Origin: Bradyrhizobium guangdongense
GTDB taxonomy: Bacteria; Pseudomonadota; Alphaproteobacteria; Rhizobiales; Xanthobacteraceae
Assembly: GCF_004114975.1 (NCBI RefSeq)
Contig: NZ_CP030051.1
Location: 1,984,001-2,048,000 of the forward strand
Direction of reading: 5' to 3'
DNA: 64,000 nucleotides
The translations under genes were made by a program, and so were the position numbers. This document shows, piece after piece, positions 53,731 to 64,000 of the stretch (its first letter is position 1; each line of letters opens with the position of its first letter). Below the pieces are notes generated by a model. The model did no database searches and had not been told where the DNA came from. It saw only the letters and a program-made list of their open reading frames with translations.

Positions 53731-54270
53731 CTAGTCTTTGTGGCCGTGCTTCTTCTTTTTCTTCTTCTTGCGCTCGCCGCCTTCGCCTTCGTCGCTCTCG
53801 CCACCTTCATCGGAGCAGGCATCGCCGGCCTCGTGCACGGCGGCTTCGAGTGCCGCGCGTTCGGCGGCCTCCTGCTCACGCCGGCGGCGGCGTTCGTCCC
53901 AGGCATCGAACAACTGCTCGAGCCACGGCAGCACCTGCTCGATCGACGGCAATTGGCCGGGCGGACCCGCTTCGCCGCGCGGGCCTTGAGGACCGGCGGG
54001 TCCCTGCGGACCAACGGGTCCTTGCGGACCGGCCGGGCCCTGTGGTCCCGCTGCTCCCCGCGGACCTGCTTCCCCTGGCTTGCCCGGCACGCCAGGCTTA
54101 CCCTGCGGGCCAGCCTTTCCGGCCGGACCTGGCTTGCCCTGCGGTCCCGGCTTGCCGCGTGCGCCATCCGGGCCGCGCTTGCCGGGATGCCCCTGCGGTC
54201 CCGGCCGTCCCGGCTCGCCCTGTCGTCCGCGCGGACCCTGAGGTCCCGGCCGTCCCTGTTCGTCTGCCAC
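53731..54270 (-). CDS. Collagen-like protein with 34 Gly-X-Y triplets, GTG start
   Basis: A 179-residue protein. Residues 6-107 are an uninterrupted run of 34 Gly-X-Y triplets with much Pro, Gln, Lys and Arg ([15 protein letters not shown] is the most regular part), expected to form a collagen triple helix. Then comes a helical segment [27 protein letters not shown] that could nucleate trimers, an acidic Glu/Asp/Gly stretch and a tail of seven Lys followed by HGHKD. There is no signal peptide or TM segment. I chose the GTG at 54270 because AAGGAG lies seven bases before it; the GTG at 54291 has no such site. A FixK/FNR box lies 81 bases upstream. Confidence 0.85.
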
Positions 54271-54350
54271 GCCGCTGCTCCTTCTGCGCACGCAAGCTAC
54301 TTAGCGGCGTTTGGCGACAGCAGCAATTCCGCCCGCACATCATGCCGGGC

Positions 54351-54364
54351 TTGATCAACATCAA
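54351..54364. promoter_or_regulatory. Perfect FixK/FNR box
   Basis: TTGAT-CAAC-ATCAA matches the FNR/FixK2 consensus exactly. It lies in the 155-base space between the divergent collagen-like gene (start 54270) and the small membrane protein gene (start 54426). Activation at -41.5 would place a start near 54399 on the plus strand or near 54316 on the minus strand, both consistent with short leaders. Confidence 0.65.
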
Positions 54365-54425: not shown

Positions 54426-54701
54426 ATGCGCGCGGCGTGGAAAGTCTTTTGTCTGGCGGCAATCGTGCTCGCGGCGGCGATCGGCCTCGCTCATCTGCTC
54501 GTGCCGGATGTCGTGCCGGTCGGCTACGCCGAAGAGCCGCAGGCCTCATGGGCGATCCTGACGGCCTTTGCGCTACGCGCAATCGCGCTGACCGCGGCCT
54601 GGGTCGCGATCATCACGTTGTCGGTGCTCGTCGGCAGCAAGCTTCATCAGATGGTCTTCCGCGCAGATAGCGCGCGGAACGATCGCACCGTCACGCGCTA
54701 G
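54426..54701 (+). CDS. Small two-TM membrane protein
   Basis: A 91-residue protein with two TM helices (VFCLAAIVLAAAIGLAHLLV and ALTAAWVAIITLSVLVGSKL) separated by VPVGYAEEPQASWAILTAFALRA. GGGGAGCG precedes the ATG. I do not recognise a family. The FixK/FNR box 62 bases upstream suggests expression at low oxygen. Its 3' end overlaps the convergent Fis-type gene by four bases. Confidence 0.7.
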   Translation: MRAAWKVFCLAAIVLAAAIGLAHLLVPDVVPVGYAEEPQASWAILTAFALRAIALTAAWVAIITLSVLVGSKLHQMVFRADSARNDRTVTR

Positions 54702-54946
54702 TCATGATAGGCCGGCACCTCGATGCCGGAAGCCGCATAGAGCCTGATCTTGTTGCGCAGCGTCCGCACTGACAGGCCGAGCACGCGCGAGGCGCGCGTG
54801 CGGTTGCCGTCGCAGCGTGCGAGGGTCTGCAGCACGAGCTCGCGCTCGACCTCGCCGACAGTTGCGCCGATCAGCAGTGGAACGATCTCGTTGGGTGCAA
54901 GGAACTGCGCGCCCCGCTCGGGCGCCGCGACATGAACAGTGGTCAT
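54698..54946 (-). CDS. Orphan Fis-type helix-turn-helix protein
   Basis: An 82-residue protein. Residues about 30-70 match the C-terminal DNA-binding domain of NtrC-family activators and Fis: VGEVERELVLQTLARCDGNRTRASRVLGLSVRTLRNKIRLY. No AAA+ or receiver domain is present, so it is a stand-alone DNA-binding unit, comparable to the small Fis-like proteins of alphaproteobacteria. The ATG at 54946 has GGGGAG seven bases before it. Its target is unknown. Confidence 0.85.
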   Translation of the reverse strand: MTTVHVAAPERGAQFLAPNEIVPLLIGATVGEVERELVLQTLARCDGNRTRASRVLGLSVRTLRNKIRLYAASGIEVPAYHD

Positions 54947-55143
54947 CAACACACTCCCCGATCAACGCCCGCTTCCATCGTTGGAAGCGGATCGAGAACA
55001 AACGACCCCCAAGCCGTAGATCTACGGTCGGCGGGTTTGGTTAATGAAAGGTTAATTCGGCGCGAGCGCACGAATTGACCTTGGGAATGCCGCCGCGTTG
55101 CCGCGATTGGCACGAGATGCGTCGTGAAGCGGGCCTAACTTGC

Positions 55144-55911
55144 TCACACCGTGCGATATCCGCCGTCCACCATCACGATCGTTCCTGTGACGTAAGACGA
55201 CAGGTCCGAGGCGAGGAAGATCGCGGGGCCCACGATGTCCTCGGGCTTGCCGGTGCGCGCGAGCGGAGTGTGGTCGACGAAGGCCTGCACCAATGCGGGA
55301 TTGGTGGCGCGTACATTGGCGTTGATGTTGGTCTCGATGAAGCCTGGCCCGATCGCGTTGACGCGCACGCCCTCCTTGCCGAGCTCGACCGCGAGCGCTT
55401 TGGTGAAGCCGAGCACGCCGTGTTTTGACGTGGTGTACGCCGCCGAGCTCGGCGTGCGCAGATGCACGAAAGACTGGATCGAGCCGATATTGACGATCCG
55501 GCCCTTGCTTGCGCGTAACGGCGCGAGGAACGCCTGCGTCATGTTGAAGACGCCGTTGAGGTTCAGCGAGATGATGTCGTTCCAGTCCTTCGCCACGGTT
55601 TCCGTTTCCGCGGTGAAGGCGTTGCGGCGGGTGATACCGGCGTTGTTGACGAGGATCGAGACCTGCCCGACCTTGTCGGCCACCTGTTTGGCCAGCGCGA
55701 AGCAATCCTCGCGCCTGGTCACGTCGAGCGCAAAGCTCTCGGCCTTGCCGCCGGACTTGCGGATCTCCCCGGCGGCCTCCGCGACCGTCTCGGCATTGAC
55801 GTCCAGCAGCACCACTTGCGCGCCCTCGCGGGCGTAGCCGGCGGCGATCGCCCGGCCGATGCCGGAGCCTGCGCCCGTGACGACGGCGACGTGGTTTGCG
55901 AGCAATGCCAT
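55144..55911 (-). CDS. SDR-family oxidoreductase (FabG-like)
   Basis: A 255-residue NAD(P)-dependent short-chain dehydrogenase. The cofactor motif is VTGAGSGIGRAIAAGYA, with NNAG in ILVNNAGITRRNAF and the catalytic Tyr and Lys in SSAAYTTSKHGVLGFTKALA, and the C-terminal VTGTIVMVDGGYRTV. It resembles 3-oxoacyl-ACP reductases and gluconate 5-dehydrogenase-type enzymes; the substrate is unknown. AAGGAAACC precedes the ATG. Confidence 0.9.
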   Translation of the reverse strand: MALLANHVAVVTGAGSGIGRAIAAGYAREGAQVVLLDVNAETVAEAAGEIRKSGGKAESFALDVTRREDCFALAKQVADKVGQVSILVNNAGITRRNAFTAETETVAKDWNDIISLNLNGVFNMTQAFLAPLRASKGRIVNIGSIQSFVHLRTPSSAAYTTSKHGVLGFTKALAVELGKEGVRVNAIGPGFIETNINANVRATNPALVQAFVDHTPLARTGKPEDIVGPAIFLASDLSSYVTGTIVMVDGGYRTV

Positions 55912-62781: not shown

Positions 62782-63750
62782 CTACGATTGCTGCCCGACC
62801 CTCGCCATACGCTGGAGTTCTGCTTGCACGCGCGGCTCCGTACACAACTGGTGGTATCGTTCCGCGCGCCATACGACGTCAGAAGAATCTAAGTAGCCCC
62901 AAAGATTGCCAATAAATCGGTGTAGCCATTCTAGGTCTTGAGCGATCGTCTCCAAATCATCGGCTTCGTAGACGAAGACTTCTTCCAGATACTTGGTGTG
63001 CATCTGCGCGTAATCTGTACCCCAGACGGTAGCGGTATGGCGTACATAATCTTTTTGGTCTGTCCAGAGAACTCCGTCCTTGACGACTGTAGAGCCGCCA
63101 ATCAGCCCATGAACAAGATGATTTCTTGCTCCCTCCATCGTCCGTCGAATATTCATGATCGCTTGGAATAGTTTGAAGTCGTCTGCCGATAGCGCTGTCC
63201 TAGCCGCGGCCGTCAAAACGTCGATCTGAACGCGTGAACTTTGCATGGCGAGAAACATCGCCAAGGCCGGTTCCGTGTTGATCTTGAGTATTTTAGCCAA
63301 CAAGAGTGCCGTTTCATTTTCTACGTAGCTCCACTTGACCACACAGCGAGCGAATATAACTGCGCATTCGGGCTGATCTTCGATGAAACGTATGCCGAAG
63401 GTGGCTTTTGCCTTTGGATAGCGGTTTGATAGCTTCTGTCGTGCTTTCCCTGACGGTTTTCGGCGTGGAAGGGCAGGGCTGCCAAGTAGGTCTTCGTGTG
63501 CCTGCAGGGGTACCAGCTCGTGAGTGCCAAACAAGATTTCATCTGTTTCGCACGATCGACAAGGCACGCTGAATTTTGCTTCTCCAATCGCAACAGGACC
63601 CTTCGTTCCACCCTGTGTGGGATCGTCCAAGGAGTAAATGTTTGCGCCGCAGTGTGGGCAGATGAAGCCAAAATACCATCTACCCTTTTCAATCTTCATT
63701 CGGCTCGCTAGCCGCGATATTCCCTTCTCGAGGACAATTGGAATTGGCAT
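62782..63750 (-). CDS. Zinc-ribbon protein with a HEPN-like R-x4-H motif, low GC
   Basis: A 322-residue soluble protein that I do not recognise. Residues 31-67 form a likely zinc ribbon (C31 and C34 in ICPHCGANIY; C64 and C67 in VPCRSCETDE). The remainder is helical and contains ARNHLVHGLIGG at about 208-219, in which R209 and H214 fit the R-x4-H signature of HEPN ribonuclease domains, with Asn after Arg as is common. Base composition is clearly lower in GC than that of its neighbours, which suggests transfer. The ATG at 63750 is preceded by TTGGGGAA. The 3' end touches a dispersed repeat. Confidence 0.6.
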   Translation of the reverse strand: MPIPIVLEKGISRLASRMKIEKGRWYFGFICPHCGANIYSLDDPTQGGTKGPVAIGEAKFSVPCRSCETDEILFGTHELVPLQAHEDLLGSPALPRRKPSGKARQKLSNRYPKAKATFGIRFIEDQPECAVIFARCVVKWSYVENETALLLAKILKINTEPALAMFLAMQSSRVQIDVLTAAARTALSADDFKLFQAIMNIRRTMEGARNHLVHGLIGGSTVVKDGVLWTDQKDYVRHTATVWGTDYAQMHTKYLEEVFVYEADDLETIAQDLEWLHRFIGNLWGYLDSSDVVWRAERYHQLCTEPRVQAELQRMARVGQQS

Positions 63751-63775
63751 CGGTTATTCCCCAAGGAGCAGTTCA

Positions 63776-63901
63776 ATGGCGGTCTTAGTAGAGTTAGAAG
63801 CGCGATTTCGACGGCCGTATCAGAGCGTGGTGCCGCCACGACTTATATATGTCGAATGCTTCTTAACGTCGACTGAGGGAATCCGATGGCGCATCGGTTG
63901 A
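63776..63901 (+). CDS. Possible short ORF, 41 codons
   Basis: A short open frame with AAGGAG eight bases before its ATG, starting 26 bases from the divergent zinc-ribbon gene. The product (VELEARFRRPYQSVV, then RLIYVECFLTSTEG) matches nothing I know. The region is lower in GC, like the neighbouring gene. The call rests only on the ribosome-binding site. Confidence 0.3.
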   Translation: MAVLVELEARFRRPYQSVVPPRLIYVECFLTSTEGIRWRIG

Positions 63902-63926
63902 ACTTATCGTTCCGACCAAAAAGAAA

Positions 63927-63945
63927 GCCGGGCGGTTAGCCCGGC
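63927..63945 (+). terminator. Terminator-like hairpin
   Basis: GCCGGGC (63927-63933) pairs with GCCCGGC (63939-63945), with a GGTTA loop, AAGAAA before it and ATTCTTCATT after it. It lies after the short ORF near the window end. Confidence 0.55.
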
Positions 63946-64000
63946 ATTCTTCATTAGTAGCTCATTCAAGCTCCGATCTTTGTGCGCGCCCCCTTACAGC

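Follow-up and report, generated by a model that had tools for sequence, protein, structure and literature searches.

The gene at 53731 to 54270 of the window (the whole 64,000-nucleotide stretch of DNA analysed here) is, judged from its sequence, a real and conserved variant of the bacterial collagen-like proteins that lacks a signal peptide and occurs in Bradyrhizobium and relatives. Its product opens with five residues that lead into 34 Gly-X-Y triplets; these are followed by a helix predicted to span 42 residues, then by an acidic stretch and a run of seven lysines. Our best explanation, which draws on a structure model and to which we assign a probability of roughly one half, is that the protein would form a homotrimeric collagen rod nucleated by the helix, would act within the cell or leave it by a route that needs no classical signal, and would use its charge-segregated tail to bind electrostatically or to assemble. 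The features of the locus are as follows.

53731..54270, minus strand: collagen-like protein coding sequence, 179 aa, GTG start at 54270, stop codon ending at 53731 (reading frame and Pfam PF01391)
54278..54283, minus strand: Shine-Dalgarno sequence AAGGAG, separated from the GTG by 7 nt (read from the sequence)
53950..54255, minus strand: 34 uninterrupted Gly-X-Y triplets, residues 6-107 (strict triplet count)
53818..53943, minus strand: predicted amphipathic helix, residues 110-151 (AlphaFold2, alignments and periodicity)
53734..53817, minus strand: acidic, then basic C-terminal tail, residues 152-179 (sequence and relatives)
53749..53769, minus strand: seven consecutive lysine codons, residues 168-174 (read from the sequence)
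54298..54328, minus strand: promoter-like element AATTGCTGCTGTCGCCAAACGCCGCTAAGTA (TTGCTG, 17 nt, TAAGTA; upstream alignment, shuffles and genome pattern match)
54351..54364, no strand assigned: palindrome TTGATCAACATCAA (perfect box; may belong to the divergent gene at 54426)

A strict count bore out the 34 unbroken triplets that the earlier note had read in this frame. The longest other Gly-X-Y run in the six frames of the window comprises 5 triplets, which excludes a chance origin of the 34-triplet run. Pro occupies 17 of the 34 X positions, Y positions are mostly Pro (10), Gln (9), Ala (7) and Arg (5), and the net charge of the Gly-X-Y part is +10; hydroxyproline is not expected in the protein. 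The Pfam Collagen family (PF01391) matched the protein at E = 2e-18 with 66.3 bits, compared with a curated cut-off of 27.2, and a search of its own genome with the same family at E 0.001 gave two matches, both inside this one frame and at no second place. Across relatives, the strict run adjoining the C-terminal segment spans 14 to 41 triplets (median 31). AlphaFold2 confidence over the repeats is low (47-60 per block). Solved structures gave only weak matches to the protein (best E = 0.016), and scans of the window against Rfam (gathering scores) and for tRNAs were both empty.

The C-terminal region had been proposed for a search among relatives, on the premise that a lack of conservation would count against the protein, and it proved to be conserved. 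With an alignment of 19 C-terminal pieces as query, it was matched in 67 of 296 genomes of the same bacterial family, distributed over 11 of 47 genera. The same listing has the region in 19 of the 27 genomes of the same genus, with 8 lacking it, and in a wider sample of the order all ten matching genomes (out of 397) belong to the window's own family. Among named genomes, the best 80 of 162 places comprise 75 in Bradyrhizobium, two each in Afipia and Tardiphaga, and one in Frankia; this single Frankia record is taken to be mislabelled. The named relatives accord with the genus that the earlier note had guessed. Collagen-type matches of any sort were found in 54 of 60 genomes of the genus. Given the presence of the family in 19 of 27 genomes and these wider matches, the gene is not unusual for its genus, and the suggestion of the earlier note that such a protein would be unusual in a Bradyrhizobium-like organism is not supported. 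Moreover, because it belongs to a conserved family common to many relatives, the protein is real and no lone oddity. The family is nonetheless dispensable, since it is missing from eight of the 27 genus genomes, four of which are without any collagen match; the other four carry one, which in three of them lies in a frame of 123 aa (L150 was read) and in the fourth in a longer one.

The C-terminal segment (34 codons, 5672 pairs) gave a median pairwise dN/dS of 0.37 and the last 12 triplets (4335 pairs) one of 0.32, in both cases from 112 distinct sequences and using pairs with a synonymous difference between 0.1 and 0.65. On these codon comparisons, the C-terminal segment and the last triplets are under purifying selection. 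Four of 110 loci were left out: three lie at contig ends and have few triplets, and one (L024) has S where the locus search pattern wanted A or V. Because that pattern itself required P, W or Y, F, and A or V, residue counts over the loci it selected were not taken as evidence of conservation, and two alignments were used instead: the 19 C-terminal pieces (18 of 38 fetched proteins, hand-picked) and a set of 31 whole proteins (30 of the 38). Twelve columns are invariant in the former (among them L, P, I, P-W-L, F and E) and 11 in the latter (among them L, P, P-W-L, F and E).

The conserved segment, LP[ST]I[ED]QVxPWLxx[LI]FDAW, starts at residue 107. AlphaFold2, run with 31 sequences on one chain, predicted a single helix over residues 110-151, with a pLDDT of 96-98 over 111-140 and 86 over 141-150 (single-chain, whole-model mean pLDDT 63.5, pTM 0.32). 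Over the first 18 helix positions, family-mean hydrophobicity (106 proteins) peaks at 104 degrees per residue, although 18 positions are too few to separate a coiled coil, with its 3.5 residues per turn, from the 3.6 of an ordinary amphipathic helix. Heptad positions a, d and e are hydrophobic, and g is less so, yet fairly hydrophobic; the second half of the helix has no such hydrophobic period. As modelled, the helix is compatible with a short coiled coil beside the triple helix. The single-chain prediction of a helix and the amphipathic character of its first part lend support to the proposal that the segment following the repeats could nucleate a trimer. In some animal collagens, a helical coiled coil adjoins the triple helix. 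The likeness lies in a helical segment that flanks the repeats and could set the register of the chains, whereas the window's protein is much shorter and has no export signal.

In all, the non-collagen C-terminal part comprises 72 residues, made up of the conserved segment, the charged helix, the acidic stretch, the lysine run and a final HGHKD. The acidic stretch and seven consecutive lysines described in the earlier note are both there, the lysines numbering exactly seven. The basic tail is also a conserved property: at least four Lys stand in a row in 100 of the 106 distinct proteins, and the tail contains a 15-residue window with at least five acidic residues in 105 of them. Over its last 27 residues, the window's protein carries a net charge of only +1. 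Closely similar tails recur, one form in 6 of the 106 proteins and DHKKKKKHRKKDKK in 11. AlphaFold2 confidence in the tail is low (54-57). Cysteine is present in just one of the 106 proteins, namely that of the window.

The claim that the protein has no signal peptide was upheld by hydrophobicity across all 127 loci. The longest listed frame opens with a GTG at 54291 and extends the protein by seven residues only (MRRRSSG), and therefore no signal peptide is concealed by an error in the start. A start with a Shine-Dalgarno-like sequence was assigned in 116 of the 127 loci, with preference for GC after the start codon, giving the 106 distinct proteins, 102 of which start with GTG. Since this choice of starts had dropped 11 loci in which the segment or the start was missing, every in-frame start was tested, that is, all ATG, GTG and TTG codons in the open frame before the repeats of all 127 loci. 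None yielded a hydrophobic N-terminus (15-residue Kyte-Doolittle mean of at least 1.6 within the first 35 residues). With the Shine-Dalgarno-based starts, 5 to 13 residues precede the repeats, and the Kyte-Doolittle mean within the first 60 residues reaches 0.19 at most. As a control, we scored another collagen-like protein found in the genus, 123 aa long, that starts MRRILIAVLMGTALTLAGC and has a lipoprotein-type signal; it reached 2.23, and a copy from a second genome of the genus reached 1.73. By the measure of hydrophobicity, then, the signal peptide or anchor of surface-exposed collagen-like proteins was not found in this family.

The gene also has a recurrent upstream sequence. A consensus element, AATTGAAGCCGTCATC, usually with a G-n-TA motif after it, precedes it in several genera. 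Of 112 distinct upstream regions, 43 contain this consensus with up to three mismatches and 91 with up to four, the corresponding numbers among 2240 shuffles being 0 and 10; the consensus was chosen after viewing the alignment, from the same regions as were counted, many of them closely related. The window's copy has 5 mismatches, a level reached by 90 of the 2240 shuffles, and the longer pattern of the window's element has a single match in the 8.4-Mb genome. A scan for the sigma-70 consensus found no site, the promoter-like element included. The element appears promoter-like and conserved.

Farther upstream lies the palindrome at 54351..54364, which we take to be an FNR/FixK-type box. In the window alone, one such palindrome is not beyond chance at one mismatch; across relatives, the perfect form occurs in 37 of 112 distinct upstream regions and in none of 2240 single-base shuffles. 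In the 35 regions that have both, it stands 34 to 36 nt upstream of the promoter-like element, within a search confined to 26-44 nt downstream of the box. Divergent from the collagen-like gene, at 54426-54701 on the plus strand, is a frame for a 91-aa protein that has hydrophobic stretches and matches no Pfam family at E 1. Among the 111 distinct regions that extend 900 bases or more upstream, the box and this divergent gene occur together in 27, the box alone in 10, the gene alone in 2 and neither in 72. The box is thus present in 27 of 29 regions with the divergent gene and in 10 of 82 without it, a comparison confounded by relatedness. The genome holds 26 perfect palindrome sites, and the 15 inspected have a mixed set of neighbours. 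We considered the palindrome as a sign of oxygen control of the collagen-like gene and rejected it, because the box goes with the gene at 54426; it may serve that divergent gene instead.

To the observed anatomy, conservation, lack of a hydrophobic signal and predicted helix, the best explanation adds a trimer, its zipping, the binding by the tail and a location, all of which we infer. Three chains would meet via the hydrophobic face that I, V, L, L/I and W form on the helix, and this contact would set their register. The triple helix, in which the rise per residue is 0.286 nm, would then zip up, starting at the C-terminus and running to the N-terminus, to give a rod of about 29 nm (34 x 3 x 0.286 nm). 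The three tails, acidic beside basic, might bind polyanions or adjacent trimers by charge. The likeliest place of action would be inside the cell, since no relative examined shows a signal. Tentatively, and as a rather unlikely version in all its particulars, this would be a cytoplasmic, helix-nucleated collagen with its own conserved promoter that, in Bradyrhizobium and relatives, rigidly cross-links an anionic polymer (such as polyphosphate or DNA).

Alternatively, the poly-Lys/His tail may be the working end of a trimeric DNA or polyphosphate binder, with the collagen rod as a spacer. The lysine runs of 100 of the 106 relatives, the net charge of +10 in the Gly-X-Y part and the recurrence of near-alike tails (in 6 and in 11 proteins) would suit such a binder, and we consider it possible, although the acid-rich tail window in 105 of the 106 proteins and the net +1 of the last 27 residues count against it, as does the lack of a nucleic-acid-binding domain in the protein by Pfam. 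It is doubtful that the protein is a surface or matrix adhesin leaving the cell by non-classical export, be it through type I or another kind of secretion, in vesicles or by lysis. A number of collagen-like proteins in bacteria do act as adhesins, and in Bacillus amyloliquefaciens FZB42 such proteins are needed for biofilm formation and root adhesion, according to the available text of one study (PMC4319854). However, a hydrophobic N-terminus was found in 0 of 127 loci, no secretion family was detected among six Pfam-scanned neighbour proteins, and other collagen-like proteins, which do carry a lipoprotein-type signal, exist in the same genus.

Two further readings have much lower probability. 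An unexpressed or decaying reading frame, to which the absence of the family from 8 of the 27 listed genus genomes might point, is very unlikely in view of the dN/dS medians (0.37 and 0.32), the GTG start in 102 of 106 distinct proteins and the conserved upstream element. Least probable is a remnant of a phage tail fibre. PHROGs tail-fibre families do match the protein (best E = 3e-26, over residues 4-141), but most PHROGs matches stop where the Gly-X-Y part ends, and at E 1e-5 neither the 50,697 phage records nor the 72,556 plasmid records searched contain a match to the C-terminal 84 residues. In addition, a phage structural family was found in 0 of 7 scanned neighbours, and neighbour genes recur in relatives (e.g., the dehydrogenase at 55144 in 81 of 106 loci).

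The helix-nucleated collagen rod can be set beside several known systems. Scl1/Scl2, BclA, Bucl and Lcl are surface, spore or extracellular proteins, whereas the window's protein has no visible signal. What it shares with these PF01391 proteins is a Gly-X-Y region between non-collagen N- and C-terminal parts, as described in the available part of PMC8968730. Unlike them, it has a C-terminal helix with an acidic and poly-Lys tail. The 123-aa protein of the same genus (L150, L151) likewise has collagen repeats (18 triplets), but begins MRRIL...LAGC, a lipoprotein-type signal, has four Cys near its C-terminus and lacks a poly-Lys tail. Xu et al. (2010) reportedly obtained a recombinant triple helix from a collagen-like protein of Rhodopseudomonas palustris, and we assume that this organism probably belongs to the same bacterial family as that of the window. 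The likeness is drawn at the level of the bacterial family, in which relatives of the window's protein span several genera. In their available text, two cosmetics reviews merely name R. palustris as a collagen source (PMC7248025, PMC11946782). No paper on the signal-less family was found among the matches listed in the literature searched, and in the available part of a Bradyrhizobium genome paper the one mention of 'collagen' is a reference title on another organism. Among bacterial collagens, the best-known ones belong to the surface, to spores or to the extracellular space. A family across several genera that has kept the repeats, a likely nucleating helix and the poly-Lys tail, yet shows no export signal in any locus examined, raises the question of what role a collagen rod has inside a bacterium, or by what route it leaves. 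The compact helix and polyampholyte tail may also be usable for collagen engineering.

Gene context yields no function, because the neighbouring genes are not kept in all relatives. At 54698-54952 on the minus strand lies a frame for an 84-aa protein that matches strongly only a Fis-type helix-turn-helix (PF02954, E = 1.2e-13) and has neither a sensor nor an ATPase domain; 94 of 127 loci contain a relative of this protein. Elsewhere in the genus, L152 holds a 1761-aa frame with 382 Gly-X-Y triplets in a run, largely Gly-Ala-Thr, and hence a very long collagen-like protein. L153 has a 519-aa frame with 78 triplets, in a genome with 21 collagen matches, several of them as equal-score pairs at two places. 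Within the window, the step at 63001-64000 has a G+C content of 0.515, compared with 0.596-0.720 in the remaining 1-kb steps, and a 322-aa frame at 62782-63750 (minus strand) is perhaps an acquired gene.
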